A stretch of DNA of 27,685 nucleotides, taken from the IMG/VR virus record IMGVR_UViG_3300032084_001178, positions 1 through 27,685 of that record, one strand, 5' to 3'. The DNA is from a virus. Position numbers and translations under genes: made by a program. Below, one piece after another: positions 333-27,685 of this stretch (position 1 is the first letter of the stretch; every line of letters begins with the position of its first letter). The notes under the pieces are model-generated. The model ran no database searches, was not told the origin of the DNA, and worked only from the letters and a program-made list of their open reading frames with translations.

Positions 333-1070
333 TCACGCGATAACTTGATTTTCTGGAATTAAGTGCATATATTTTCTCATGATATTGTAACGCTTTTGTC
401 TGAATAAAACATGAGGATCATACACATATTCATCCAATTTATCACATATTGGTTCATCATGCTTATCGGCAAGTTCTCCCCAATAATTCCATTCTCTCAA
501 ATCACCTAAGTTGTGTATGTAGCTGGTTGTCCAGAATACCATTGCAAGACGATCTCCGCGTGTTACTTCATTCACACGATGACCAATACCAGTCTCATAA
601 GTTATACCCCATCCAGCCTCTAATTTGAATTGAACTTCTTTACCATCCAACCAAAAAATCAATTCTCCACCATCATATTCCGATGGGTCATTCATAAAAA
701 TAGTCGTACTGAAATGACCATTATCAACCATGTCAAAATGTGGTTTGTAAAATCCTCCGGTTGGAGTTTTGGTAATCAATGGAGATGTGCTTTTCTTTGG
801 ATATGTGAAACGAACAAACTCTTTATTACCGTCAATGGCAGGCCAAATCCTGGTATTATTCAACTCTACATTTTCTGGTAGTTGATAATTTCTTTTTATC
901 TTAGACTTATCTCTGTTAGATTCTGGTGGAGCAATAAGTGATACTTTACCATCTATCCAATCAAAGTCTGTCGTTGCATCATCAACCATATCATTTATAT
1001 CTTTAACTAGAGACTTAATCTCCCATTTAGTAAAGAACTTAGAAATATGAAATCTTGTAGATAGTGTCAT
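333..1070 (-). CDS. 2OG-Fe(II) oxygenase, PiuC/PKHD-type
   Basis: Predicted non-haem iron dioxygenase using 2-oxoglutarate and O2 to hydroxylate an unknown substrate, of 245 aa. The double-stranded beta-helix motif is complete: H111-x-D113 (in YKPHFDMV), distal H164 (GIGHRVNEV) and R171 (TRGDR) for the 2OG carboxylate, followed by LAMVFW. The stretch YDGGELIFW between them is typical of the PKHD-type group. The frame can be extended to a TTG at 1079, but the ATG at 1070 overlaps the upstream stop as ATGA, so I choose it; there is no Shine-Dalgarno sequence and translation is probably coupled. It is the last gene of the helicase-led operon. The substrate (protein, nucleobase or small molecule) cannot be read from the sequence. 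Confidence 0.88.
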   Translation of the reverse strand: MTLSTRFHISKFFTKWEIKSLVKDINDMVDDATTDFDWIDGKVSLIAPPESNRDKSKIKRNYQLPENVELNNTRIWPAIDGNKEFVRFTYPKKSTSPLITKTPTGGFYKPHFDMVDNGHFSTTIFMNDPSEYDGGELIFWLDGKEVQFKLEAGWGITYETGIGHRVNEVTRGDRLAMVFWTTSYIHNLGDLREWNYWGELADKHDEPICDKLDEYVYDPHVLFRQKRYNIMRKYMHLIPENQVIA

Positions 1071-2266
1071 TTGAACCAAGTAACTAATGAATAACGTGTA
1101 CCACTGGTGACAGGCATCACACGATGAGAAAATACAAAGTTTGATGGAAATGCTACGATAGATCCTTTCTTAAGTTTTGGAATATAACTTCCATACAAGA
1201 AAGCAAGATCTCCGCCTTCAAAATCATCTGGATCACTCAACAATGCAACCATTGAAAGTTCTCTGTGCTGTCGAGTTCCTGAATCAGCATGACAAACATA
1301 TTGTCCTCCAACATCATATCTCAACAGGAAATATCCTTCATCAGCTTGAACATCAACGAAGTCGTATAGTTTAGCATACTCTTGCGAAACTTTATTTACT
1401 GCTTCATACAAACTCATGTCAATAAGTTTTGCCGCATCATCTTTGAGTCTACTGATTTCCAGAATATCATTAACTCTTTGTTTTGATTTTTTATTGCCAT
1501 CCATTTCATCACCAGCAGTTAAAGCTGGAGTCCATGCTTTATGGTCTCTATCAAAATACTCAACAATATGGTCACAAAGATCTGGATCTATTGCATCATG
1601 AACTACATGAATATAATCTGATACTAATACTTCAGTCTTTCCGTATTTTGGTTTGTTGCACCGCCATCCAAGATCTATGAGTTCATTTCGCAATATCTTT
1701 GATCGTATTCTTCCTTCATGACATTTAATATCAGGAACGAAAACATCATCATTTACAAGTCTTGCACCATAACTATTCTCTCTCACATAATGTAAGAAGA
1801 ATGCAGTGTAATTATTTCCCTCAAACTTCTCTCTCCAATGCTCATTGTGAACGCCAAGAAAAATCAATGCGTCTCCAATTTCCAACTCAATTTCTTGAGG
1901 ATTATTGTCCCAATCTTCGATGTAAATTGGCCAATCATGATCTTTATTAAGTATTACACTCACAGATATTTCACATGCTGGTCTGTCAATGTGTTTTTTT
2001 AATTCCTCACCATTGCCATACACTCTAGAATATGAATATGTTGGTAAGAGAGGCTCTTCTACGAGGAGAGATAGTTTATCTAAATTATCAGACAATTCTT
2101 TCTCTGCTAGTGCATACTTATATTTTGCTGGTGATTGTGGACATTGACCATCTGGTTCCCACTCTTCACAATCTTTCAATACTTGTTGATAAAGAAAATC
2201 TGCATGTTCCGCGCTAATAAAATTAGGAACATGCAGATAGTTTTTAGAAAGTAAATCAGCGTTCAT
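1067..2266 (-). CDS. Tandem two-domain 2OG-Fe(II) oxygenase
   Basis: A 399-aa protein made of two dioxygenase units. The N-terminal unit (about 10-165) has H92-x-D94 in KKHIDRP, then a GVHNEHWRE segment with H140/H143 as candidates for the distal iron ligand, and ends FFLHYV. The C-terminal unit (about 215-399) has the textbook PKHD pattern: H326-x-D328 (CHADSG), FEGGDLAF, H381 (SHRVMPVTSG) and R391, ending YSLVTWF. Each unit alone is the size of a normal phage 2OG oxygenase, so this is a fusion or internal duplication, though the two halves are quite divergent. It starts 27 nt after the 46-aa gene without a clear ribosome-binding site and overlaps the next oxygenase gene by ATGA. Iron and 2OG use are inferred from the motifs; the substrate is unknown. 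Confidence 0.87.
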   Translation of the reverse strand: MNADLLSKNYLHVPNFISAEHADFLYQQVLKDCEEWEPDGQCPQSPAKYKYALAEKELSDNLDKLSLLVEEPLLPTYSYSRVYGNGEELKKHIDRPACEISVSVILNKDHDWPIYIEDWDNNPQEIELEIGDALIFLGVHNEHWREKFEGNNYTAFFLHYVRENSYGARLVNDDVFVPDIKCHEGRIRSKILRNELIDLGWRCNKPKYGKTEVLVSDYIHVVHDAIDPDLCDHIVEYFDRDHKAWTPALTAGDEMDGNKKSKQRVNDILEISRLKDDAAKLIDMSLYEAVNKVSQEYAKLYDFVDVQADEGYFLLRYDVGGQYVCHADSGTRQHRELSMVALLSDPDDFEGGDLAFLYGSYIPKLKKGSIVAFPSNFVFSHRVMPVTSGTRYSLVTWFK

Positions 2267-2293
2267 GACAAAGATAAGATTTTAATTTTTAGA

Positions 2294-2434
2294 TTAGTGG
2301 GAGTGAACTACACCACTGGCATGAACATGTGGAATAGCACTGTTATAGATGTGGAATGACCCATGTTGAAGTCCTGCGCCAAGCAAAGCTCCTGCAACAA
2401 TTAAAGGAGCAAATCTTAAGATTCTCAAAGCCAT
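2294..2434 (-). CDS. 46-aa membrane-segment protein with His-rich tail
   Basis: The ORF starts MALRILRFAP, has a hydrophobic stretch at residues 8-22 rich in L, A, G, V and I, and a C-terminal tail containing HGSFH, HVHASG and HSH, with seven His in the last 23 residues. It starts 5 nt after the stop of the 44-aa gene (TAG then ATG at 2434) and fills the space before the two-domain oxygenase gene. The tight spacing, the single helix and the resemblance in plan to the preceding mini-gene argue that it is real. A late-promoter-like CATAAATA (2460-2467) sits 25 nt upstream. No family recognised; metal binding by the tail is inference. Confidence 0.6.
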   Translation of the reverse strand: MALRILRFAPLIVAGALLGAGLQHGSFHIYNSAIPHVHASGVVHSH

Positions 2435-2439
2435 GAATA

Positions 2440-2574
2440 CTATTGTTGAATGACTGGTGTATTTATGTGAGAATGTTCGTGAGTGTCAAAAAACATCTGA
2501 TGAGTAGATTCCCACAAAACAACAGATGCGACTGCAATTAAAATGTATTCAGATAATTTATAGAATTTTTTCAT
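2440..2574 (-). CDS. 44-aa single-helix membrane protein with HEHSH tail
   Basis: The ATG at 2574 overlaps the stop of the upstream oxygenase gene as ATGA, the same coupling used elsewhere in this operon, which supports it as a gene. The product begins MKKFYKLSEY, has a hydrophobic helix at about residues 10-22 (ILIAVASVVLW), and a polar tail containing HQMFFDTHEHSH. Predicted topology is a basic N-terminus in the cytoplasm and the His tail on the far side. Function unknown. Its neighbours are iron-dependent oxygenases, so a role with iron or another metal is possible but unproven. Confidence 0.65.
   Translation of the reverse strand: MKKFYKLSEYILIAVASVVLWESTHQMFFDTHEHSHINTPVIQQ
2460..2467 (-). 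promoter_or_regulatory. T4-like late promoter octamer (candidate)
   Basis: CATAAATA followed by C, read on the minus strand, lies 25 nt before the ATG of the 46-aa gene. It fits the NATAAATA late element known from T4 and cyanomyoviruses. It lies inside the 44-aa gene and could allow late expression of the last three genes. Such octamers also occur by chance in AT-rich DNA. Confidence 0.35.
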
Positions 2575-3224
2575 GGATTTGGTTTCTTAAATGGTTCGTT
2601 AAAAGTTTTGTCATATAGCCAACCAGTGACTATGTATTTTGTTTCCGTTTTAGGAGGAAATCCTCTATGTAAGTATGTCCAGGTAGCAGGAAACAATAAC
2701 AGTTTACCACATTCTGGTTGGATTTTGGTGCCATCAATGAACTCAGTGTATCCATCCTCTTTTATATCATTTAGATACCAAATAAAAGTGAGTAGTCTGA
2801 CACCAAACTCTTTTTCAAGATTGTAATCCGTGTGCCAATGATAATATCCTCCAGGTTTTGTTCTCTGTATTTGATAACCTCTATCCACAAATGGTGGCAT
2901 ACTCCAAAAGTATCCACTTTCAGGATGGCAAAATCTATCACACCAATCATCAAGACCTTTATTTAAAGCCGTGTAGAAAACCTTGTCTTCATCTTTCCAA
3001 TTATTTGTTGAGATAAAAAGATCATCTGAGGTTTTTATAGTTTGATCTACAATCCATTTTGTACCAATAGATCCAGGAGCAACGTCTGGATCGTTTTCAA
3101 ACTTTTCAATACAGTGTTCGCAAAAATCTCTATCAAGGTTATTTGGGTATGTGAGAATAAAATCACTAGAGGCAAATTGCTGTTTTTCCTCTAATGGAGC
3201 ATTTTTAGTTTTGAACCGAGGCAT
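2571..3224 (-). CDS. 2OG-Fe(II) oxygenase, prolyl-4-hydroxylase-like
   Basis: A 217-aa dioxygenase. Iron ligands H131-x-D133 occur in YYHWHTDY and H186 in YLHRGFPP; K196, ten residues after the distal His in ETKYIVTGW, takes the 2OG-binding position as Lys, as in prolyl-4-hydroxylase-type enzymes, whereas the PKHD-type neighbours use Arg. LLTFIWYLND and GKLLLFPATW are the expected core strands. The start overlaps the deaminase gene by 20 nt and has GAAGG about 9 nt upstream. It is followed by the 44-aa mini-gene through an ATGA overlap. The substrate is unknown; cyanophages commonly carry several 2OG oxygenases. Confidence 0.88.
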   Translation of the reverse strand: MPRFKTKNAPLEEKQQFASSDFILTYPNNLDRDFCEHCIEKFENDPDVAPGSIGTKWIVDQTIKTSDDLFISTNNWKDEDKVFYTALNKGLDDWCDRFCHPESGYFWSMPPFVDRGYQIQRTKPGGYYHWHTDYNLEKEFGVRLLTFIWYLNDIKEDGYTEFIDGTKIQPECGKLLLFPATWTYLHRGFPPKTETKYIVTGWLYDKTFNEPFKKPNP

Positions 3225-3591
3225 ATAAAAAACCTTCGTTAGTGCTGTAATATACGTTAGTTATACCTGCTTCTTTGATAGCCATTTCACAGATAGGACA
3301 TGGTTTTGCCATGCGTAATTTGCCTTGGGGATTGACCCTTGCAACAACTATTGTATCACATTCTTTCTTTGCTTTCACAAGAGCTGAAACCTCTGCATGT
3401 AGATAAATCTTTTCCCGTAGACCAACACGTTCAGCAAGACTTGCCTGCAATGGATGAGTCTTTTTATCTTTATTGACTCCAATGCTAACAACCTCATTCT
3501 TCTTAAGTAGAATAGCACCAACCTGTTTGCTTGAGTCGGACATCTCCGCAACACAAATAGCTTTGTCAAAGAACTTTTCGTCAATCGGCAT
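3205..3591 (-). CDS. Cytidine/dCMP deaminase-like zinc enzyme
   Basis: A 128-aa protein with the zinc-dependent deaminase signature: H65-A-E67 (YLHAEVSAL), where the Glu is the proton shuttle, and P97-C98-P99-I100-C101 (KPCPICEMAI) for the other two zinc ligands. The spacing and length fit the small cytidine/deoxycytidylate deaminase superfamily. A role in pyrimidine nucleotide supply is likely, but tRNA or free-base substrates are not excluded. The N-terminal part (VAEMSDSSKQVGAILLKKNEVVSIG) is the usual first beta-hairpin. It overlaps the upstream oxygenase by 11 nt and the downstream one by 20 nt, so it is translated within the oxygenase operon. Confidence 0.85.
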   Translation of the reverse strand: MPIDEKFFDKAICVAEMSDSSKQVGAILLKKNEVVSIGVNKDKKTHPLQASLAERVGLREKIYLHAEVSALVKAKKECDTIVVARVNPQGKLRMAKPCPICEMAIKEAGITNVYYSTNEGFLYASVQN

Positions 3592-4147
3592 TGAAGTTGA
3601 AGTTAATTACAGAGCGAAGGTTGTTACTAGGTTGACTGCTAGCATGAAAGTGGTTCCCATCAAATATGATATATTTTCCCTTTTCAGGTTCTATCTCTTG
3701 CATGATAGTGCAACTATTCTTTATAGTACCATCATACTTCTCTTCAAAGAAATATGTTGGGCCGTCACTATCATTGACATAGTATAGTAGAACTGTGTGC
3801 TTATCAGTAGAGTCAACATGTGGGGTATGCCACATATAATCAACATCTCTAGGTAGGAGCATGTTGATCTTAATTCTTGATAAAAGTTCCTCGTCTAAGT
3901 TAAGTTCCCTAATGATAGGTCTACAAAAATTGTAGTATATCCAAGTATCAGACTCAAATTCATTATCGCAGAATACTGGACGGACAAGCTGCGGACCTTC
4001 ACCCGCATTTTGAGTAAAAATGATAGCGGGATCGTCTGGTGGTGCAAGAGAGGTTTCCGTATCCAGAAGCCATTGGATTTTTGCATCTTTCATAATAGCA
4101 GTCTCAATATAGTCTGCTAATTGAGAACTAACCCTTCCTATTTTCAT
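3581..4147 (-). CDS. 2OG-Fe(II) oxygenase
   Basis: A 188-aa dioxygenase with H110-x-D112 (HTPHVDST), a distal His in GNHFHASS (H168 most likely, H166 the alternative) and R178 (NLRSVINFNF) for 2OG binding. HTVLLYYVND and GKYIIFDG are the flanking core strands. It resembles short 2OG oxygenases that I associate with cyanomyoviruses and probably differs in substrate from the three others in this operon. The ATG overlaps the helicase stop by one base (TAATG), so it is coupled to helicase translation. Confidence 0.85.
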   Translation of the reverse strand: MKIGRVSSQLADYIETAIMKDAKIQWLLDTETSLAPPDDPAIIFTQNAGEGPQLVRPVFCDNEFESDTWIYYNFCRPIIRELNLDEELLSRIKINMLLPRDVDYMWHTPHVDSTDKHTVLLYYVNDSDGPTYFFEEKYDGTIKNSCTIMQEIEPEKGKYIIFDGNHFHASSQPSNNLRSVINFNFNAD

Positions 4148-9984: not shown

Positions 9985-9992
9985 GTATTTAT
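9985..9992 (-). promoter_or_regulatory. Late promoter octamer of the 893-aa fibre gene
   Basis: Minus-strand ATAAATAC, preceded by TA, overlaps the TAA stop of the 2006-aa fibre gene and lies about 24 nt before the ATG at 9961. It matches the NATAAATA late element of T4-like phages. Confidence 0.55.
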
Positions 9993-12900
9993 TACTTACA
10001 CCGAATGACGTAGTAAATTCCATAATAAGGAGGTAGATTTCTGTTTGTTCCAGAACTACCAGTTGGTGCAGCAGTGGCGTTGTGATTATGACCCCCATTC
10101 TGACTCATCGTATGGTTGTGATTAGCCTGGGTTGGGATGTCATGGATATGTGAACCAGCATTTTGAGTAGTATGAGTGTGCGTTCCACCAGCATTTGTTT
10201 GGTGAACGTGAGCACCCTGCGTCCCAGCAGTGGCACCCCCATGATCATGACTACCAGAGGCATTTGTTGCGTGAGTGTGAGTACCATTCGCTCCCGTTGC
10301 GGCACCATGGGAGTGACCACCACCCGGATTGGTATTGTGGGCATGTTGTGTTGACTGGTTTATGTTGTGAGCATGGCCACCAGCGGCCCCTGTGGCAATA
10401 TTCTGACGGGCGTTGCCAGAAGCGTTGCCGCCTCTATTACCATACTCTACACTGTTGCTTCTGCGAGTATAGTTGTGTGAATGAGATCCACCAGATACCG
10501 CAGTATGGCCATGAGTACCGCCCTGAGCAGTGGCACCATGGGCATGGGCAGGTTGTGTGTTAATAGTATGTGTATGGTTGGCAACAGGATCTACTTGAGC
10601 ATGATCGTGATTAACTTCTATATCGATAGTGTGTCCGTGAGCTCCCTGAGAATCTGTATTTCCATGGTCATGGTTGCCAATAGGATCAACAGTATGTAAG
10701 TGAGTGCCTGCTGCTACAGTTTCGCCCCCATGAGCATGAGAACCAGCAGCATTATTGGTGTGATTGTGATTCGCTACAGCAGTATTTGTTATCGTATGTG
10801 TATGAGTCACTGTAATTGCATCAGCAAATCCACCAGTTCCACCAGTTGTGTATGCCAAACCAGCTGCAACAGGGAACCTATCAATGAGGTTTGGAATTAC
10901 AAATGTTGATCCAGATGGATTCGGTCCATATGGGAATACTGTTCCACCAGATGTTAGCGCATCATATAGTTCTGGGAATTCCGCTTGATTGAGAGTCTGA
11001 CCATCACAAACTCTGTAATATGTGGTAAGTCCAGTAATTGTTCCCGCCCACATTTGAATAGATCCAATCGGGGGAATGTTGGGAACATTCAGGAACTGTG
11101 CAGATAGTGTTCCAACAACATCAAGATCGCCATAATTTCTAGTTAAATTGGTGCTAGATCTTAGAGATAGGTCATTTGTAGTGGATTCAATTTCATTTGT
11201 TGATGTACCTGCACCAACTTCAATATCACCTAGTTTTGCACCAGCTTGACCCTCAATTATTCCCTGGAATGTAGAAACGCCAAGTACATTAAGTGATCCA
11301 CTAATATCGAGAGATCCAGAAGCATTAAGGCTTCCAGTAACTTCTAAGTTTGCGTCAATCTTGGTATTACCATTGATGTTCATCACATTGTTGACGGTCA
11401 ATGGGCCATCAAATTGTGATAGTAGTGTCTTGGATGCGCCACCTTCGACAACTAGTCTCTCTTTGATGATTACTTCATCAAAGATAACACTTAAAACTGA
11501 AGGATCTTCACCACGAACTGTGGGGATAGGAGCATTGAATGTAGATTCTTCACCAGTGGAAGGATTGATAATCTTGTTACCAATGAAGAAGTCACCATCG
11601 TTGTTCATTGCAGTATAAACTACAATACCACCACCTCTTTGTTGGGATTGTGTTAGGAACTCCTCTTTAGGTGTAAGTGTGATATTCTGAACTTGAGGCA
11701 ATCCAGTTGAGTAGTTACCAGGACCATAACCTAGATATTCAAATGTATGGCCAGATGCACGAAGAATAGATGGTCTACGAAGTTCTGTGCCATAGATATT
11801 GATCTTACGAATCTGAGTTCCATTTTTGTGTGGTTTAGTATCAGATCCAAGATAACCACGAATTACACCAATTTCATCATTTGCAGGACCAAGTAGAGTC
11901 TTGGTCGTGATTCTCATAATCTCACCATCTACATCAATATAATCTCCTAAAGAGAATCTCTCAGCAGTTCCAATGCCAGAATTGGGTAGACTAATCTTAA
12001 ATTGATTATCTGCCTCACCATCACCAATGTCCTCAACTAGGAGTGCAGATTCATTTGCAAAGAAGTTAAATCCGCGAGATCCTAGATTCTCACCCTCAAC
12101 AGTAATTGTTCCACCTTTTGCATCATATGCTGTAGGTACAACATAGTTTGGATTTGTTTGTAGATCAATAGTTGTACGAGCTGTAAGAGTTAGAATACCA
12201 ACCCTTTCCAACACGTTGAATTGTCCAACATTATTATTATTTGTATCCAAAATCTGGAAACTATTTCCAGAAATTAAACCATGAGCATCATTTGTAGTAA
12301 TAGTAGCCACACCAGTGAGATTTCCACTATCTGATGTGAAGACAATCGTATTGATTCCGATTGATCTACCAACATTTACCATGTATTGGCCTAATACAGG
12401 CAATGGATCTCCACCAGTGTATGCAAATGACACCTCAGTAGTAGAGGGAATTGCAGAAATTCTATATGAACCGTCAGATGTAGATCCAATACCAGTAAGT
12501 TGAATAGAGTTACCGATAGCGGTAGAAATACCAGATGTGTTGATGGTGATTTCTGCACCAGTAAATCCAGATAGATCTAGAATCTCTCCATTAGTGTATG
12601 CACTACCAGGAGCTTGAACTTCAACACTTTCTACAGCACCGCCAGAACCAACAATAACTTTGGCTGTTGCGCCATCATGAGTTGATGTTCCATCATTTAG
12701 AAGTTTGACATTATAGTATTCACCTTCAGTAAATCCACTTCCCGCAGTTAAAGAAGTATAAGTTGAAATACCAGAAAGATTGTGTGGTCTATCAAGAGTT
12801 ATTGTAGCAATACCAACTACACTATTAGTTTCAATTTGAATGATTGTTCGGCCAATACCAATAGTTCTATAGACGGTATCAATGCTTTCTCTTGTAATGC

Positions 12901-15900
12901 TATTTTCAGGATCATCAACTACTACATCTCCAATAGGATCTCTCTTAGCATATGATTTTGCTGCATTTGGATTGGTGTTTGGATTATCTCTATCCAATTG
13001 AGGATAGAAATTCTCAATTCTAGGTAGATATCCAAGTTGAGTAAACTCTTCTTCAATGTAATTATCAGCGGTTAAGATATTGAAGTGATAGACACCATCA
13101 GAGATGTTTGGGATGTGTTCTTGAATAACCTCAGAACGATAGATGGTAGCATTGATCTGGTTGTTTACTCTCTGATAGCGAGCATTGAGAGAATCTCTAG
13201 TATCGACATCAGTATTAAAATCGCCAGGCAATCTAGAATCACCATCAATATCTGTAGTGTTATATTGAAACTCTAGTTCATTGTTTACTGTAGTTACAAC
13301 AAAATCTCCATTATATCCACTTTTTGCTATTCCAGCTAAGTTTGTTGTACTCTTGGCATCAACAATTTTTACAGTATCACCAACTCTAATGTTGTGAGGA
13401 AGTTCAGTCTGTACAGTTACTACACTACCAGCAGCTGTACAGGTTGCAATGTATCTGGGATTGCGTTGGAAATCGTAATCATCTAGATCAATGGTTGTGA
13501 TTGTAAAGTCTTGATCATTTCTAAGATTAGTTGTATTACTATCCTGCAAAACAAAGTTTTCTACAGGGTTTCTTCCAAGAGTTGCCTCTTTAGGAACAAA
13601 ATATCTAAGTTTATAAATTTTATCACCAAGACTTCTATTGTCTGGATTTCTACGAATATAAGATTCATTAGTTTGATCACCAAGACCAGCAACACCCTGA
13701 CCAGCTGCTAATAAACCATTGTAGATAGCATTGTTTGCTTCAACGTGAATAAACCAGTTGTTGTGATTTGGATCATATAAAATTGGACAACCAATCTCGT
13801 TCTGATCATGATCAGATACTCTACTCTCTACTCGTAAGTCTGTACCACCATATACCGTAATAGAAACACCCTTCAAAGCATCAGATAGAGTAGATGCTAC
13901 CTTAAATTCACTATTACTTACTTTAATACAATAATAAATTGTTTCTGGCTCTAGATTTTCAGGAAGATCGCCATCTGCGGATATAATACGAATCTTTTCA
14001 CCGGTAACTAAATTGTGATTAAATCCGGTGTTAAACTCACTAGCAGCACTGAGACTCGTAATCTTTGTAATTCTTTCCTTAGACCCTGTTCCCGTAGCAA
14101 CTGTGCTGGATGTAGATACTAAAGCATCACTAATTAAAATACTTGCTTGATATGTTGTGGTATTGGATCTATCACCGACATTGCTAAGATCAACAAATAA
14201 TTGGTCATTTTGTTTAGCACCAATTCTATAACCCTGAACAATATTTTGTGGTGGATTATCAGCATCTTTGAACCCAAAGAGATATAGATGACTAGAAACA
14301 CCAACGGCCGTTGTCAAGCCAACATCAAGAGTTACAAGGTCAATCTTTCTACTAACAGATCTATCGATCTCTTGTGGAGCAATAATAGAAGTTACATATC
14401 CTTGATCATCTTTTGCAAATGCCTCAGCTTTAAATCCACTAGAGATAAGTGCAATCTGACCAAAGTTTGAGTTGGAGTTGGTAATAGATGCGTCACCACC
14501 AGTCTCACATAAGAAGTGAGCATTGAAACCAATAGCGAACACAGACACCACCTGAATGATGGAATCATTACTCATTTTAATATGAGCAGTTTCCCATCCA
14601 GTTCTATAAATTGCTGTGCTATCTAAGTGATAAACCGTATTCGTATTTGTAGAACTTGATCCAGAAGAAAGTTCAGCACCTGTTACTTTGGCAATGGGAA
14701 TACCATCATAAGTTCTAGATACAGGGTTATATTTAACAAATGCACGGTCATCCTTTTGTAGAGATACAGCAGTGTACTGTGCAACAACCATTGAACGGAA
14801 ACCGGTGGATTTTTTACCATCGGCAAGCATACCATTCATTCCATATACGCTTCTCAGAGAGCAGTTGAAAACGTATGGAGATGCACCAGTAACTGTATCA
14901 GTCTCGATAGTTACATTTGCGCCAGAGACGATTGCAGTGGCAACTAGGGTTGGGCTTACAAATGGTAACAGATATGTAAACTGATCAGTCGCAGGTACTG
15001 ATCTTACAAATGTGGAGATGTTGTAATCGCTGGGAGATGCTCCGCGAATCTTTACAGGAGTACCTACAGTAAGCCCGTGTGGACCTTGTGTTCTGACAGT
15101 AACTAACTGAGTTGCTACAGCACCATCACCAGAAATAATGCTTTCAATTTTAACTGGGTCAGAAGCAAATGCACCTACAATTTCATATTCAATTCTAGAT
15201 TTAGAGAATCCTTGTGATTGTCCAGGGAATTTCTGGTCAATATTTCTACCCGAAGATTCATTAAAAGCATTAGATAGTTTACTATAGTACATGTCAAGGT
15301 CAGATAGACCTGTTTCTTGTACTACAGTTATTCCATCAGCAAACTCAAATCCAGTAAGTTTATGGTGAGAGAATGTAGGAACTGATTGATTTGTTGCAGA
15401 GAAGTCTTGGTTGTCAGTATATACTCTTCTTTCTTGTGGACCGTCAAAGAGAGTAAAGTCTCTAAAGTAACAAGTACCAGTTAAACGAATCAGAGCTGAC
15501 TTGGGTACATCAGGGTCAGTTGGGTTGGGAACATATAGCGGCCGAATCTTTGTCTTTCTTAAATCTAGACCAACAATTGATGTGCCTCTTGGAAGAATAC
15601 ATCCACCATTTACGCTGTTAAACTTGTACAGCATATTGTCTTCGACATCCAAATCGAAGACAGATTCTAAAGATAGAGTGAGAGTAGATTGTGCTAAAGT
15701 CTCTACACCCGAAGGAGAAATGGCTCTTGCAATTCCCAAACTATCCTTAATTTTGAAACCAGGACGGTTATCAATTAAGTGTTCTCCAGGAAACAACAGA
15801 ATAGTAGTTCTATCAAATAGATCATTATCGTTTCCCCTTACATAAGAGAAACGAGCTGATTCTATTAAAGCCCTCTGAATAGTCTTAAAGGGTTGAGATA

Positions 15901-16012
15901 ATGAATTACCCTGGTTATCAATGCTATCGGTTGCGCCAATATCGTTAGGGTTAACGTAAAGAATCTTACCCTCAGTGTTCTTGATAAAATTCTGTAGCTT
16001 ACTAAGAGGCAT
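9992..16012 (-). CDS. Giant tail fibre with collar domain and His-x-His tip
   Basis: A 2006-aa virion protein. Residues about 15-80 (ILYVNPNDIGATDS, PFKTIQRALIESARF, TTILLFPGEHLI) look like the start of a pectin-lyase-type beta-helix. The middle has repeated PHGL/PHNI segments (PHGLTVGTPVKI, PHNIRVGDTVKI, PHNLSGIST, AHGLISGNSFQI). Residues 1595-1630 carry fibre strands, and a phage collar domain occupies about 1650-1718 (GSIQMWAGTITG, CDGQTLNQAEFPELYDAL, IPNLIDRFPVAAG). Residues 1737-1977 hold 21 His-x-His motifs, and the end (NRNLPPYYGIYYVIRCK) is the classic collar-fibre terminus. By analogy with T4 gp12 and gp37 it is a receptor-binding fibre whose tip is built around metal ions. The ATG at 16012 lacks a Shine-Dalgarno; a late octamer lies about 30 nt upstream. 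Confidence 0.87.
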   Translation of the reverse strand: MPLSKLQNFIKNTEGKILYVNPNDIGATDSIDNQGNSLSQPFKTIQRALIESARFSYVRGNDNDLFDRTTILLFPGEHLIDNRPGFKIKDSLGIARAISPSGVETLAQSTLTLSLESVFDLDVEDNMLYKFNSVNGGCILPRGTSIVGLDLRKTKIRPLYVPNPTDPDVPKSALIRLTGTCYFRDFTLFDGPQERRVYTDNQDFSATNQSVPTFSHHKLTGFEFADGITVVQETGLSDLDMYYSKLSNAFNESSGRNIDQKFPGQSQGFSKSRIEYEIVGAFASDPVKIESIISGDGAVATQLVTVRTQGPHGLTVGTPVKIRGASPSDYNISTFVRSVPATDQFTYLLPFVSPTLVATAIVSGANVTIETDTVTGASPYVFNCSLRSVYGMNGMLADGKKSTGFRSMVVAQYTAVSLQKDDRAFVKYNPVSRTYDGIPIAKVTGAELSSGSSSTNTNTVYHLDSTAIYRTGWETAHIKMSNDSIIQVVSVFAIGFNAHFLCETGGDASITNSNSNFGQIALISSGFKAEAFAKDDQGYVTSIIAPQEIDRSVSRKIDLVTLDVGLTTAVGVSSHLYLFGFKDADNPPQNIVQGYRIGAKQNDQLFVDLSNVGDRSNTTTYQASILISDALVSTSSTVATGTGSKERITKITSLSAASEFNTGFNHNLVTGEKIRIISADGDLPENLEPETIYYCIKVSNSEFKVASTLSDALKGVSITVYGGTDLRVESRVSDHDQNEIGCPILYDPNHNNWFIHVEANNAIYNGLLAAGQGVAGLGDQTNESYIRRNPDNRSLGDKIYKLRYFVPKEATLGRNPVENFVLQDSNTTNLRNDQDFTITTIDLDDYDFQRNPRYIATCTAAGSVVTVQTELPHNIRVGDTVKIVDAKSTTNLAGIAKSGYNGDFVVTTVNNELEFQYNTTDIDGDSRLPGDFNTDVDTRDSLNARYQRVNNQINATIYRSEVIQEHIPNISDGVYHFNILTADNYIEEEFTQLGYLPRIENFYPQLDRDNPNTNPNAAKSYAKRDPIGDVVVDDPENSITRESIDTVYRTIGIGRTIIQIETNSVVGIATITLDRPHNLSGISTYTSLTAGSGFTEGEYYNVKLLNDGTSTHDGATAKVIVGSGGAVESVEVQAPGSAYTNGEILDLSGFTGAEITINTSGISTAIGNSIQLTGIGSTSDGSYRISAIPSTTEVSFAYTGGDPLPVLGQYMVNVGRSIGINTIVFTSDSGNLTGVATITTNDAHGLISGNSFQILDTNNNNVGQFNVLERVGILTLTARTTIDLQTNPNYVVPTAYDAKGGTITVEGENLGSRGFNFFANESALLVEDIGDGEADNQFKISLPNSGIGTAERFSLGDYIDVDGEIMRITTKTLLGPANDEIGVIRGYLGSDTKPHKNGTQIRKINIYGTELRRPSILRASGHTFEYLGYGPGNYSTGLPQVQNITLTPKEEFLTQSQQRGGGIVVYTAMNNDGDFFIGNKIINPSTGEESTFNAPIPTVRGEDPSVLSVIFDEVIIKERLVVEGGASKTLLSQFDGPLTVNNVMNINGNTKIDANLEVTGSLNASGSLDISGSLNVLGVSTFQGIIEGQAGAKLGDIEVGAGTSTNEIESTTNDLSLRSSTNLTRNYGDLDVVGTLSAQFLNVPNIPPIGSIQMWAGTITGLTTYYRVCDGQTLNQAEFPELYDALTSGGTVFPYGPNPSGSTFVIPNLIDRFPVAAGLAYTTGGTGGFADAITVTHTHTITNTAVANHNHTNNAAGSHAHGGETVAAGTHLHTVDPIGNHDHGNTDSQGAHGHTIDIEVNHDHAQVDPVANHTHTINTQPAHAHGATAQGGTHGHTAVSGGSHSHNYTRRSNSVEYGNRGGNASGNARQNIATGAAGGHAHNINQSTQHAHNTNPGGGHSHGAATGANGTHTHATNASGSHDHGGATAGTQGAHVHQTNAGGTHTHTTQNAGSHIHDIPTQANHNHTMSQNGGHNHNATAAPTGSSGTNRNLPPYYGIYYVIRCK
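10082..10804 (-). repeat. Array of 21 His-x-His motifs encoding the fibre tip
   Basis: Residues 1737-1977 of the giant fibre. Eleven motifs form a first block, with starts spaced 12,10,12,10,11,10,11,10,11,10 residues apart; ten form a second block spaced 10,10,12,10,13,10,10,10,10. The blocks are separated by a His-free insert of about 33 residues with Arg, Asn and Gly (NYTRRSNSVEYGNRGG...). In a trimer each motif would give six His around one axis position, the octahedral iron site seen in the T4 gp37 tip. Confidence 0.85.
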
Positions 16013-22862: not shown

Positions 22863-24848
22863 CTATGTATAAGCTAGGATAACCCTTGATATACTATTTA
22901 ACACACTTGCAGTATCATCTCTTTGTACCCTATACATGGTACTTCCCGGTGCTGGTGCTGGAGATTCCATTCTCGGAGTTCCAATGACAACTGCGTTTCT
23001 TCCTCGTCTATCTTGAACTGTTCTTCTTATCTGAGGTCTTTGTCTTGATCTAGCTGCAACACTATCTTGAGATACCAAACTAGCTTGAGATCCTGGAGCT
23101 CCATGAGATACAGTTATATTATTTGTACCAATAATAACTGCTTCTCGACCATATCCAGATCTCCAACGCCACTGCCTTACGGCAAATGGGAATGTTGTTT
23201 TTGATCCAACCTGAGATGGGAAAGTTTGAGGAGCTGTTGGGTGATGTTCTTGAATATCAACAGCAGCACTACTTCTTCTTCCATGAGCTTGCTGCTCTGC
23301 TGCAATTAAAGATTTGAGATCTTGATCTGATATACCTCTCCTAGCATCTCTTCCAATACTTCCAAAATGTACCCATGATCCTCTGGCAAACATTGCCTTA
23401 ACTGCACGGAAAGCAACGTCCCTAATTTCTGCCAGTTGTGACGCAGACGGATTTCTTGGGCCATCAATATGAAAATGTGTCCCATATTCTGTTTCAGACG
23501 AATCACTAGATCCACCTTGAATAAATCCAGGTTCTCCCATTCTTACTGGTATTAAACCTGTTCCAGCAATTGGAGTTCTTCTCCGTACAGGTCTCTGTGT
23601 AGTTTGCCTCCGTGTAGTTTGCCTCTGTGTGGTTTCTGATGTGCCAGTATTGAATCGTCTAAGTTGTTCTTCACCACCTGTAAGTTTTATAAAGTTTATA
23701 TACTCTTCCAATGAGATACTTCCATCTTTATTGCCATAGATCAAATCAATATTTTTATTTTCCACATATGCGGCGCTGGGTGATGAATATAATGCTGAAT
23801 TCATATTCAGTTTACCAAGATCTGCTGGTCGTATGTTAGCCAGTGCAAGATTTCCCATCCCACCTGCAGTTCTAAAGAATCCAGCGTCTTGTAAATATTT
23901 TTCATGAATCGCTACTTGATCTGCCCTAGACAATCTTCTAAATTGTTCTTGAGTATATCCATATCTAACATCCCCAAATGATCCACCAAACATTAGTTGG
24001 AATAATCCAGTTGCAGCATCATTCTCTGGATTGACTATGCTGGGGTCTAATCTAGACTCTGCATTATATAAAGACATCAATTCGGATGGATTTACTTTTG
24101 CTCTCGCTGCTAGTTTCCTCACTGCCTCCTGAAACTCAACATCTTGTTCTATATCTTCAACTGGAGCAGATCCAGTTACATTTAACAAAGAACCACCTGC
24201 TGTTGGATCATCAGGATCCTCAGATGCAAGATCCTCAGCAAGTTTCTTTACCTCAGCCGTCATCTCATCCCATTGCTTATTCAAATCATCAAAACTTTTA
24301 TTCATTTCATCAATTTTTTCTTGTATCTTTCCTTCACTATCCCAAAAATCAAGTCTTTTCCAGTTCTCTATAGTTTGAGTCACAACAGCTGTCATACTAT
24401 TAAATACTGTTCCCATTTGCATAACAAGTCTTTTGATAGATGCAAAGATCTTCTGTATTCCAGAGAAGAAAATCTTTACCTTTTTGATAAAAGAAGGGAT
24501 AAATTTAATCAACCATCCAATACCAATCATCACCAAGGCATCAAGAATATTGCCCATAACACCTGCTTTGCCACTCACACCTTTCGGGTTCTTCTTAAAT
24601 AATTCTGTTTTTGATTCTAATTTTGTCTCTCGATCAAATTTTCTTTGCTTATCTCTAGCAATTATTTTATCTCTTTTTTGTTTTTTTACTAACTGTTCTT
24701 CTCGCTTTTTTTTATCAAAATAAAATTTATATAATTTTGCTGTAGATTGCTTTACTAAAACTGTAGACTCAATGACATTGGCCAAGCTATTGCTAATCGA
24801 ATCACTCGGTTTGGATCTTGGTAAAAACTTCTGAGTATTAAGAGTCAT
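22863..24848 (-). CDS. Tail protein with lysozyme-like domain
   Basis: A 661-aa protein. Residues about 30-90 are a basic coiled coil (KKKREEQLVKKQKRDKII) and 97-127 a hydrophobic helix with GIGWL. Residues about 240-345 look like a transglycosylase/lysozyme domain: NPSELMSLYNAESRLDPS with candidate catalytic E264, then NDAATGLFQLMFGG. Residues 366-387 (YGNKDGSISLEEYINFI) resemble an EF-hand/dockerin loop with Y in place of the first Asp. A Thr/Gln/Arg linker (403-425) leads to a part with GTHFHIDG (456-463) and HGRRSSAAVDI (522-532), suggestive of a peptidase but not assignable. It probably cuts peptidoglycan at infection; position between 727-aa and gp27-like genes. Confidence 0.72.
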   Translation of the reverse strand: MTLNTQKFLPRSKPSDSISNSLANVIESTVLVKQSTAKLYKFYFDKKKREEQLVKKQKRDKIIARDKQRKFDRETKLESKTELFKKNPKGVSGKAGVMGNILDALVMIGIGWLIKFIPSFIKKVKIFFSGIQKIFASIKRLVMQMGTVFNSMTAVVTQTIENWKRLDFWDSEGKIQEKIDEMNKSFDDLNKQWDEMTAEVKKLAEDLASEDPDDPTAGGSLLNVTGSAPVEDIEQDVEFQEAVRKLAARAKVNPSELMSLYNAESRLDPSIVNPENDAATGLFQLMFGGSFGDVRYGYTQEQFRRLSRADQVAIHEKYLQDAGFFRTAGGMGNLALANIRPADLGKLNMNSALYSSPSAAYVENKNIDLIYGNKDGSISLEEYINFIKLTGGEEQLRRFNTGTSETTQRQTTRRQTTQRPVRRRTPIAGTGLIPVRMGEPGFIQGGSSDSSETEYGTHFHIDGPRNPSASQLAEIRDVAFRAVKAMFARGSWVHFGSIGRDARRGISDQDLKSLIAAEQQAHGRRSSAAVDIQEHHPTAPQTFPSQVGSKTTFPFAVRQWRWRSGYGREAVIIGTNNITVSHGAPGSQASLVSQDSVAARSRQRPQIRRTVQDRRGRNAVVIGTPRMESPAPAPGSTMYRVQRDDTASVLNSISRVILAYT

Positions 24849-24850
24849 TT

Positions 24851-27034
24851 TTAGAACAGAACATTATAGATCGATCTCGAAAGCATTCTATAAGGATTTG
24901 AAGTATCATAAGTTTTCAAATTAGGAACCGTACTTCCACCACTAGGAGTGGGTGGTTGTATTGGTTGTGGTATCTGCATTGTACTTACATCAACCGTTAC
25001 CTGTTGCCCCTCATATTCTGCATTTAATGCAACATTCCTTGTATTGGATGTTTCTCTTCCGTCCAACGAACCATCAAGGCCTGCATAGGCTGAGTCAGGA
25101 AATACACTAGGAGTCATAGCGTCAAGTTGATCCTGAGTATACATATCAAGATTTTCCTGATCATAAGGAATTGTAGGAGTATCACCATGAGCAGGCATCA
25201 CTGGAGTCGTGGGAGTAACTGGTACTTGTTGCCGCCGAGCAATATCTGCAGGAGAACTTGTGTTATCATCTGCATCTCCTCCTCCTCTGGGAGGAGAAAT
25301 TGGAGTTGTAGGTTCAACTGGTTGCTGAGTCTGCTCTTGATTTCTCTTCTCTTCTTCCGCTTCTTTCTGGAGGCGACGCCGACGGGATCTATAGATCCCG
25401 TGGAAGTCATTTTTAGTTATTGGATTTCCAGAAACATCGAAATATTTATCCTCAGGAAATCCAAACATGTTTCTTCCAGCTACTACGGTTCCCACACCTG
25501 GGAATCTTACATTCTTCCCAGCACCAGAAGGGGTACTTCGTACCTCTTTGTGGGCTTCTGAAAGTTCAAGAAGTTGCTGCTGAGCACTTTTTGGTGCTGG
25601 AGTTTCAACATTCCCTCCTTTTTCCGTAAGTTGAAATGTATCCTCATTGTTTACTGTTACTTTTTTGAGCAATCCTTTCGTCTGACCAACTTGAAATAAT
25701 GCATTTAAATTTGTAAGTCGATTCTTAGTTTTAAGTTCTTCATCGTCGGGTAAAAATGCACCAAACAGTCCTTTCGTCAGGTATTCTCCATAATTTTTAT
25801 AATATCGTTTATTTACAGGATCGTAATAACCTCCGGCCGCTTTTAATTCAGCCTGTCGTTTTTCGTCTTCTTTTGCAGTTCTATCAAGTTGGATAGTAAG
25901 ATTTTCTATTTTTTGCAATACTTCAAGGTCACTCAAATTAGAGAACTTTGCAATTGCAATTTGATCAAGAACAACTGGTTCTAAAAGTTCCGCCGTCATC
26001 AAGGCCAACATGGCGTAGCCTGCGCCACCACCCATACCCGGTCCACCTGATCGACCCACCCCAGGTGTTCCTGTCGAAACTCCTCTCCCAGTCCTAGTAA
26101 ATCCTTGTCCAAATCTTTGAAATCTTTGCCGGAAAGTATTTCCACCTCTACCTTGGGTAACATTCGGTTTCGTTCTAAGAGGATTACGGAACTGACCACT
26201 TTGAGTTACTCCTCTATTAAGGCCTCTAGGATTTCTACTTGCAGGTAGATTTCCCCCTGGGCCGGGTGGAGTTACTGGGCGTCGTAAGACACCAAATCTT
26301 TGTAGTATACGCCTACCAATAGCTTGAAGTGGTTTTAACACTAACCATTTAAAAGGTTTCCAAACTAACCACTTTGCAAGTTTTTTGCCAAATACTCCCA
26401 AACCAAAAATAATTGCGCCGAGACCTCCAGATGCCAGAGCAAGGGATGATCCCATAACTGCAAGACCTGCCGTTATTTCTCCCTTTAATTCTTCTAGTTT
26501 ATCAAAATCACCTTCTCGTTCTGCTTTGAAATACTTGACAAACTTGTCAGTTAACCATCCAATTCCTAGCAAAAATAGAGCATTTTTGATTTTCTCGAAG
26601 GGATTTCCCAAGGCATTATTCACAGCCTGGAATGGTGCTTTCAGTGCTTTCTTTAATAAACCACCACCTTCTAAAAGTTTCTCTGATGCCGAAGATTTTT
26701 TCTTCTCTTGTAATATACGAGCATCTTTTTGTTGTTTTTTATATTGTTTGCTCTTATTCTTTTGATCTTTTATTAATACAGTATAAATTTTGGTGATATT
26801 CGCAGAAACATCACGAAGATTATTATTGACTTCTTTTAATTGATCATTTACAATCTCATTATTAGCAGTCGGAACACTTTGAGTTATCTTCCTGAAAGAG
26901 TCTGCAAAGCTTCCCTTTGGTTTAACAGGAATAGTTGTGGAATTAATTGGAGACGCAAAGCCAGCCGACCGTTTTTTCTCTTGGAAAAAACTACCAAAAT
27001 TAAAACTGGGTCGTGCTGGACTTTTAGATACCAT
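24851..27034 (-). CDS. Large tail protein, tape-measure-like plan
   Basis: A 727-aa protein. A basic disordered N-terminus (1-55) is followed by a coiled coil (about 60-118, KNKSKQYKKQQKDARILQEKK). Hydrophobic segments lie at about 151-170 (NALFLLGIGWL) and 186-215 (Ala/Gly/Leu-rich), then a basic amphipathic stretch (KWLVWKPFKWLVLKPL). An Arg/Gly-rich linker (250-340), a helical region (340-400) and a long Pro/Thr/Gln-rich tail complete it. The N-terminal plan is shared with the 661-aa protein. Position right after the gp26/gp51-like frameshift pair is where tape-measure genes lie in many phages, so a tape-measure or inner-tail role is inferred. The start overlaps the frameshift extension by 11 nt. 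Confidence 0.65.
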   Translation of the reverse strand: MVSKSPARPSFNFGSFFQEKKRSAGFASPINSTTIPVKPKGSFADSFRKITQSVPTANNEIVNDQLKEVNNNLRDVSANITKIYTVLIKDQKNKSKQYKKQQKDARILQEKKKSSASEKLLEGGGLLKKALKAPFQAVNNALGNPFEKIKNALFLLGIGWLTDKFVKYFKAEREGDFDKLEELKGEITAGLAVMGSSLALASGGLGAIIFGLGVFGKKLAKWLVWKPFKWLVLKPLQAIGRRILQRFGVLRRPVTPPGPGGNLPASRNPRGLNRGVTQSGQFRNPLRTKPNVTQGRGGNTFRQRFQRFGQGFTRTGRGVSTGTPGVGRSGGPGMGGGAGYAMLALMTAELLEPVVLDQIAIAKFSNLSDLEVLQKIENLTIQLDRTAKEDEKRQAELKAAGGYYDPVNKRYYKNYGEYLTKGLFGAFLPDDEELKTKNRLTNLNALFQVGQTKGLLKKVTVNNEDTFQLTEKGGNVETPAPKSAQQQLLELSEAHKEVRSTPSGAGKNVRFPGVGTVVAGRNMFGFPEDKYFDVSGNPITKNDFHGIYRSRRRRLQKEAEEEKRNQEQTQQPVEPTTPISPPRGGGDADDNTSSPADIARRQQVPVTPTTPVMPAHGDTPTIPYDQENLDMYTQDQLDAMTPSVFPDSAYAGLDGSLDGRETSNTRNVALNAEYEGQQVTVDVSTMQIPQPIQPPTPSGGSTVPNLKTYDTSNPYRMLSRSIYNVLF

Positions 27035-27212
27035 GTTTCTGCTTATACTTGAGTTCTTCCTGTTCTAAGAAATTAACTAAAAGAGAAACATAAACTTCTC
27101 TTTCCCACGGCATCATTTCTTCTAACTCTGTCAAGCTATATTTATGGTGCTGCATTAAAGCGAAATTAGTTTGATAATAGCTCCCCAACGACTCATGCGC
27201 TAGGGCTATGCG
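27024..27212 (-). CDS. gp51-like segment reached by -1 frameshift
   Basis: A 62-codon open frame without an in-frame ATG before its conserved part; upstream it is closed by TGA. Read after a -1 shift at 27212-27218 it continues the gp26-like protein as RIALAHESLGSYYQTNFALM, then QHHKYSLTELEEMMPWER and EVYVSLLVNFLEQEELKYKQ, a well-formed segment resembling T4-like gp51/tail chaperone C-terminal parts. It ends at TAA 27026-27024, inside the start of the 727-aa gene. By analogy with lambda gpG/gpGT, the long form would carry the tape-measure-binding part. A non-canonical start within the segment is the alternative. Confidence 0.72.
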   Translation of the reverse strand, partial: RIALAHESLGSYYQTNFALMQHHKYSLTELEEMMPWEREVYVSLLVNFLEQEELKYKQKHGI

Positions 27213-27685
27213 AAAAAACTTGCTAGACCTTCCAGAACATGCTCACTTTTCTTCTTTGTTTTAGGATTAGTTACCTTAATTGTATGAGATAACTTTGGCA
27301 TCGTTGAGAAAAACTTCTCGACCAATTGAAACTGTGATGATGTTAGATCACCAACGAATTCTTCTAGTTCTTCTTTCGTACAATCAGAGGCTGCCCATGA
27401 TTCTTCTTCATTATAAACTTGCTCAATACACTGACCAATCATAGAAAATCCTTCATCAATTCCCAGATCTTCTCCTGTGAAATTACTCTCAACAAACTGC
27501 TTGAGAGAGGGATATTTCATTCTAAGTTTTAGACCTCCTCCTAGATCAATGTCTCTACTATGATCTTCGGATTCTTTCACTTTAATATCATCAATATTAA
27601 TCTTGAGATCAACCTTAGTTTCTCCATCATCAGGACAAGTGACAGTTACTTCAATAACTTCACCCACAGACTTTCCACGAACATT
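27206..27685 (-). CDS. 26: gp26-like baseplate/tail chaperone, 5' end outside window
   Basis: A partial protein of 159 visible residues; the frame is open to the window edge, so the GTG at 27667 is not the true start. It resembles the T4 gp26 baseplate family: VGEVIEVTVTCPDDGETKVDL, MKYPSLKQFVESNF, FSMIGQCIEQVYNEEESWAA, TKEELEEFVGDLTSSQFQLV, EKFFSTMPKLSH, and the end VLEGLASFFA. In T4 this product acts in assembly of the baseplate hub. The sequence ends four codons after an internal GGAAGG and two codons after a T-TTT-TTC slip site, with the gp51-like frame open in -1. Confidence 0.8.
   Translation of the reverse strand, partial: NVRGKSVGEVIEVTVTCPDDGETKVDLKINIDDIKVKESEDHSRDIDLGGGLKLRMKYPSLKQFVESNFTGEDLGIDEGFSMIGQCIEQVYNEEESWAASDCTKEELEEFVGDLTSSQFQLVEKFFSTMPKLSHTIKVTNPKTKKKSEHVLEGLASFFA
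27212..27218 (-). promoter_or_regulatory. Slippery heptamer T-TTT-TTC for -1 frameshift
   Basis: The codons AGT-TTT-TTC-GCA-TAG contain the heptamer X-XXY-YYZ as T-TTT-TTC in the correct zero-frame phase. GGAAGG (27233-27228), an internal Shine-Dalgarno-like stimulator, lies 9 nt upstream, the arrangement seen in the dnaX frameshift. Downstream is a short CGC...GCG stem with TA/TA pairs, a weak stimulator. The zero-frame stop TAG follows one codon later. Confidence 0.72.

Follow-up and report, generated by a model that had tools for sequence, protein, structure and literature searches.

Frameshifting in tail chaperone genes is classic. In phage lambda a short and a long product, gpG and gpGT, are made from one gene by a –1 shift near its 3' end, at the slip site G GGA AAG. 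The locus described here resembles this system in that one gene would encode both products, in its position just before a candidate tape-measure-type gene, and in that the products are expected outside the virion, and differs from it in the protein family (PF12322 here, another one in lambda), in the slip site, and in its hairpin and Shine-Dalgarno-like stimulators. Xu, Hendrix and Duda reportedly extended –1 frameshifting of tail assembly chaperones beyond lambda in 2004. The –1 cassette of dnaX in Escherichia coli consists of a Shine-Dalgarno-like element approximately 10 nt 5' of a slippery heptamer and a hairpin approximately 6 nt 3' of it; we observe the same three-element arrangement, while the dnaX heptamer is A AAA AAG and dnaX is a cellular gene.

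In Vandenendeviridae and Andersonviridae the short chaperone is also terminated at a poly-T motif with a –1 shift, although the motif there is GTTTTT, and these are other virus families (PMC12846349). A review treats the tail-chaperone frameshift as conserved and T4 as an exception (PMC5009743). Vladimirov, Gautam and Davidson (2022) are reported to have identified the T4-type tail assembly chaperone genes and to have proposed a mechanism other than frameshifting. A later paper attributes to the same authors the poly-T slip sites of T4-like phages (PMC12846349). According to the PRFect paper, a longer fusion gene accompanies a short one in some T4-like phages (PMC10885494). The idea of frameshifting in T4-type genes is hence not new in outline. 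In about 20 GenBank annotations of the locus, gp51 is either entered as a second gene or missing, and the two parts are never joined.

Reading frames at the locus

The window is the entire 27,685-nt stretch of the IMG/VR virus record IMGVR_UViG_3300032084_001178, from a marine cyanophage. The features considered below are all on its minus strand.

27209..27685, minus strand: gp26-like coding frame (0 frame), likely the short tail assembly chaperone; C-terminal 159 residues, the N-terminus lying beyond the window
27228..27233, minus strand: GGAAGG, predicted Shine-Dalgarno-like stimulator, with a 9-nt gap to the heptamer
27212..27218, minus strand: slippery heptamer T TTT TTC, phased X XXY YYZ with the gp26 frame
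27206..27208, minus strand: 0-frame stop TAG, one codon past the slip site
27183..27205, minus strand: predicted stem-loop, beginning 6 nt 3' of the heptamer
27198-27205 (CCCTAGCG) and 27183-27190 (CGTTGGGG), minus strand: arms of the stem-loop
27027..27212, minus strand: –1 frame extension of 62 codons (RIALAHESLG...KQKHGI), gp51-like, likely the C-terminal part of the long chaperone
27024..27026, minus strand: –1 frame stop TAA
24851..27034, minus strand: next gene, 727 aa, by its position after the chaperone gene a candidate for the tape measure or for one member of a pair
22863..24848, minus strand: second following gene, 661 aa, with an SLT lytic transglycosylase domain (PF01464, E 7.4e-5)

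The 3' end of the gp26-like frame reads ...GAG CAT GTT CTG GAA GGT CTA GCA AGT TTT TTC GCA TAG, and its translation ends with ...VLEGLASFFA-stop. The initial annotation suggested that the gp26-like and gp51-like parts are connected by a programmed –1 frameshift, and direct reading of the minus strand agrees with all its elements: the gp26-like frame ends at a T TTT TTC slip site (27212-27218), GGAAGG is located 9 nt 5' of the heptamer (27228-27233), and a –1 frame of 62 codons follows (27027-27212), closed by TAA. In accordance with the same annotation, no ATG precedes the conserved segment of the –1 frame: the first one is the M of NFALM (27153-27155, index 19), and a TTG is found at 27186-27188. 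The ATG of the next gene, at 27034, overlaps the end of the –1 frame.

The full-length short product comprises 238 aa, as read from a matching contig (L001). The gp26-like part matches the Pfam family T4_baseplate, PF12322 (E 2.9e-49; 168.1 bits, above the curated cut-off of 24.5), and phrog_150 (E 2.5e-50). For the –1 part, the PHROG search gave phrog_634 (E 9.7e-29), named “baseplate hub assembly catalyst”, and also the C-terminal end of phrog_150 (E 2.1e-5).

Two further features were observed elsewhere in the window. The C-terminal part (9992-10900, minus strand) of a 2006-aa fibre-like protein (9992-16012) consists of many short repeats rich in His, Asn and Gly (HTHT..., NHNH...), and several 2OG-Fe(II) oxygenase-like proteins, as judged by reading the translations only, are encoded in a row at 333-4147 (minus strand).

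Conservation of the slip site and the –1 frame

With tblastn, 557 phage records matched the 0-frame part and 550 matched the –1 part, with one place of gp26 per record. We analyzed 173 non-T4 loci, 160 from IMG/VR and 13 from named phages, the latter including ValKK3 (KVP40-type), P19 (Aeh1-type), phiN3, AF3, phiOC, BUCT-ZZ01, S-CREM2, Melnitz-3 and Nitratidesulfovibrio phage SRB7757. In all 173 loci (160 of 160 in IMG/VR) the shift to the gp51-like part is by –1 and occurs at the same position. The groups with this arrangement include distant Kyanoviridae, KVP40-type and Aeh1-type Straboviridae, Emdodecavirus, Pootjesviridae and a Nitratidesulfovibrio phage; S-PM2, S-N03 and phiM9 also fit. 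The heptamer is TTTTTTC in 167 loci, TTTTTTT in four, TTTTTTA in one and TTTTTTG in one, and the 0-frame stop is found one codon past the slip site in 167 of the 173.

The frame break might also reflect decay of the gene or an error of sequencing. Six T in a row are prone to such errors, and the initial annotation named one that restores a single frame among the findings that would refute the shift; still, the same –1 offset in 173/173 loci, coming from independent assemblies and isolate genomes, refutes both error and decay, whose probability we consider negligible.

The heptamer as such is ordinary: TTTTTTC occurs eight times in the window against 9.8 expected, so there is no excess and the count alone is uninformative, the excess over chance being in the conservation among relatives. 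Among 73 representatives selected at 80% identity, the codon preceding the Phe pair, which stands for Ser, Ala, Asn, Asp or Thr, ends with T in all 73 (log10 P about –16 given codon usage), and TTT is used for the first Phe, also in all 73 (log10 P about –11); these P values ignore kinship beyond the 80% clustering. Elsewhere in these genes, T_TTT_TTC occurs at only one of 70 Phe-Phe pairs. Synonymous variation at the two Phe codons is 0.00 and 0.25 of the expectation. Hence the wobble bases of the predicted slip site are fixed beyond what codon usage explains. Moreover, the residue immediately following the Phe pair is Arg in 56 of the 73 representatives when read in the –1 frame and is mixed in the 0 frame, with the entropy after the pair of 1.22 bits (–1 frame) compared to 2.83 bits (0 frame), and comparison of the relatives indicates that the –1 frame is kept as protein from the slip site onward.

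These data also allow us to weigh the possibility that gp51 is a separate small gene, having its own start codon or translated by termination-reinitiation past the gp26 stop. It is annotated so in GenBank for P-SSM2, S-PM2, S-T4, phiN3 and others, and in 121 of the 173 relatives the first ATG is at codon index 3, two bases past the 0-frame stop, so that in these phages some free gp51 part might additionally arise by reinitiation. However, no ATG is present in the window until index 19 of the –1 frame; three of its closest relatives (L003-L005) have no usual start until codon 26 (TTG); the first start in the extension of P19 is at codon 31; and SRB7757 has no ATG, GTG or TTG throughout the extension. 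The Shine-Dalgarno-like element, at approximately 26 nt from the index-3 ATG, is too distant to serve that start, and a separate gp51 would need neither the slip-site wobble bases nor the conserved residues before the ATG. T4 gp51, in turn, retains the C-terminal part fused to a full N-terminal part. We consider a separate gene very unlikely, and sequence comparison, with 173/173 loci in the –1 frame and fixed wobble bases, strongly supports a frameshift between the two parts.

In Ackermannviridae (Salmonella phage PhiSH19 and Vibrio phage 1.244.A), too, a gp51-like –1 extension with an MPWHL motif follows the gp26 frame (3180-3400 in L184 and 3160-3400 in L185), and the slip region, ATT TTC ATT TAA or CTT TTT CGC TAA, is devoid of T TTT TTC, and these phages may thus rely on another type of slip. 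In the record of Klebsiella phage KPV15 (L183, 2402-3159) the annotation breaks gp51 and the adjacent genes into fragments, apparently owing to sequencing errors.

Predicted stimulatory elements and the proposed mechanism

The Shine-Dalgarno-like stretch, located approximately 10 nt 5' of the slip site, is predicted to pair with the anti-Shine-Dalgarno sequence with the mean energy of –7.06 kcal/mol in the 73 representatives, compared to –5.57 for synonymous recodings (Wilcoxon P 1e-7).

The predicted downstream hairpin is a further element of the cassette, absent from the initial annotation. In the window its energy is –12.1 kcal/mol (synonymous-shuffle z –2.7). The post-slip stretch of the 73 representatives has the mean z of –2.28 compared to synonymous recodings, while a control stretch 60 nt further on has –0.12; with dinucleotide shuffling, z for the hairpin is –1.85. 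The hairpin occurs in two registers, one of them in the window and few relatives, and the other, with up to ten pairs, in 28 of the 73 representatives (110 of the 173 loci). The remaining 38 representatives matching neither register still have a negative mean z (–1.17). The register of the window was also considered as the general form and rejected, as it does not hold in most relatives. In the second register, one pair, traced in 34 aligned sequences, is U-A in 17, G-C in 11 and A-U in two, and two-sided changes number 14 compared to 5.5 expected, a value reached in none of 500 shuffles. Pairing was among the grounds on which these 34 sequences were selected, which biases the paired percentage and, to a lesser degree, the exchanges.

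A run of six T might also cause slippage of RNA polymerase instead of the ribosome, and some transcriptional slippage is compatible with the sequence. On the other hand, the run is short and is closed by C in 167 of the 173 loci, and stimulators of the kind that act on ribosomes flank it at their typical spacing, which makes this possibility highly improbable.

Ribosomal slippage, by which one gene would yield both forms of the tail assembly chaperone, is very probably the mechanism used here, as judged from the frames, slip site, stimulators and their conservation, which are read in the sequences. Most ribosomes would stay in the gp26 frame and stop just past the slip site, producing the 238-aa short form. 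A minority, delayed by the upstream Shine-Dalgarno-like contact and the downstream hairpin, would move back one base on T TTT TTC, with both Phe tRNAs re-pairing with TTT TTT, and read 62 more codons to produce a long form of 299 aa. By analogy with lambda gpG and gpGT, the short form may serve as a coat of the tape measure protein and the long form may recruit tail tube subunits through its C-terminal part, and both would depart before completion of the virion.

T4 counterparts, probable chaperone function and candidate tape measures

In T4 both gp26 and gp51 match PF12322, and the C-terminal part is found only in gp51. Residues 15-245 of T4 gp51 align to positions 21-281 of the fusion profile (E 2.5e-14), and gp51 matches the C-terminal part alone (E 2.4e-9) at its own end, while gp26 ends with ...GLKEFFELL, near the point where the slip site would be. 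Thus, gp26 corresponds to the short form and gp51 to the full long form of the same protein family. The initial annotation linked the T4 pair with short and long products, which holds, but gp51 is not merely the C-terminal part, as it spans the whole fusion. Unlike the single, probably recoded gene described here, T4 genes 26 and 51 are divergently transcribed and lack the frameshift, and Aeromonas phage 25 has the same two-gene layout.

Homology of T4 gp51 to the entire fusion indicates that the T4 gene was duplicated and not split. The simplest history compatible with these sequences would be that the T-even lineage exchanged the recoded gene for two copies, one short and one long; this direction of change is suggested by the wide spread of the recoded form and not by a tree. 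As the examined T4-like phages outside the T-even group keep the frameshift, T4 looks like the derived case.

The chaperone function of the two products is likely and is suggested by several lines of data. The short and long forms share the N-terminal domain, as follows from the geometry of the window and from the PF12322 matches of both T4 proteins. A T4 review lists gp26 and gp51 among the chaperones of hub assembly and places gp51 outside the final particle (PMC3004832). In S-CREM2, the only phage for which such data were used, ORF206 and ORF207, covering both parts of the locus, are absent from the virion proteome, which contains the neighbours 203, 204 and 208-213 (PMC10665884). The predicted fold is less telling: the AlphaFold model of gp26 (pLDDT 86.5) matches gp26-type proteins of many phages, and its similarity to a solved tail chaperone, that of HK97 (2ob9), which is among its top PDB matches, is weak and non-significant (E 2.1-3.7); a sequence search of PDB gave no match, and nothing useful matched in NCBIfam.

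The frameshift may be real and gp26 and the long form be structural hub proteins, as some T4 work puts gp26 in the hub (PMC3004832) and database names refer to the baseplate hub. This we consider unlikely, given the chaperone assignment in the same T4 review, the S-CREM2 virions lacking both parts, and the gene order, with the chaperone gene followed by tape-measure-like genes.

The tape measure is probably to be sought among the two genes that follow, although their matches to known tape measures are weak or absent. The 727-aa product matches phrog_3405, with no assigned function (E 2.3e-10), the 661-aa product has weak matches to tape-measure PHROGs, and the two are paralogous, with a related N-terminal region (E 6e-6); the corresponding pairs in S-CAM1, S-SCSM1 and S-SZBM1 likewise share a related N-terminal region. 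The products of both genes are virion proteins in S-CREM2 (PMC10665884). The initial annotation proposed the next gene as the tape measure, which is plausible, but with two paralogous genes following there is no single clear candidate, and either or both may have this role. In cyanophages the two may together form a two-chain tape measure. Comparison of the lengths of the two products with the tail length, 933/722 aa and 138 nm in S-N03, 950/1131 aa and 173 nm in S-SCSM1, and 1565/1456 aa and 418 nm in S-CREM2, reveals no clear proportion in these three phages for either gene or for the sum; both genes are very long in the 418-nm-tailed S-CREM2. A search with T4 gp29 yielded 1160 matching phage records, and the organisms listed for them did not include any cyanophage. 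The next gene has another in-frame T TTT TTC (26984-26990, minus strand) close to its start (FGSFFQE), probably by chance.

Taken as a whole, a history in which recoding, with a three-part cassette that includes a covarying hairpin, is ancestral in T4-like phages and their wider relatives, the gene was duplicated in T-even phages, and the following paralogs possibly make a two-chain tape measure, is offered as a tentative and rather doubtful combination. The locus is encoded in more than 500 records of cyanophages and related phages, where recoding would correct the reading of gp51, and it supplies a specific cassette for a reporter test.
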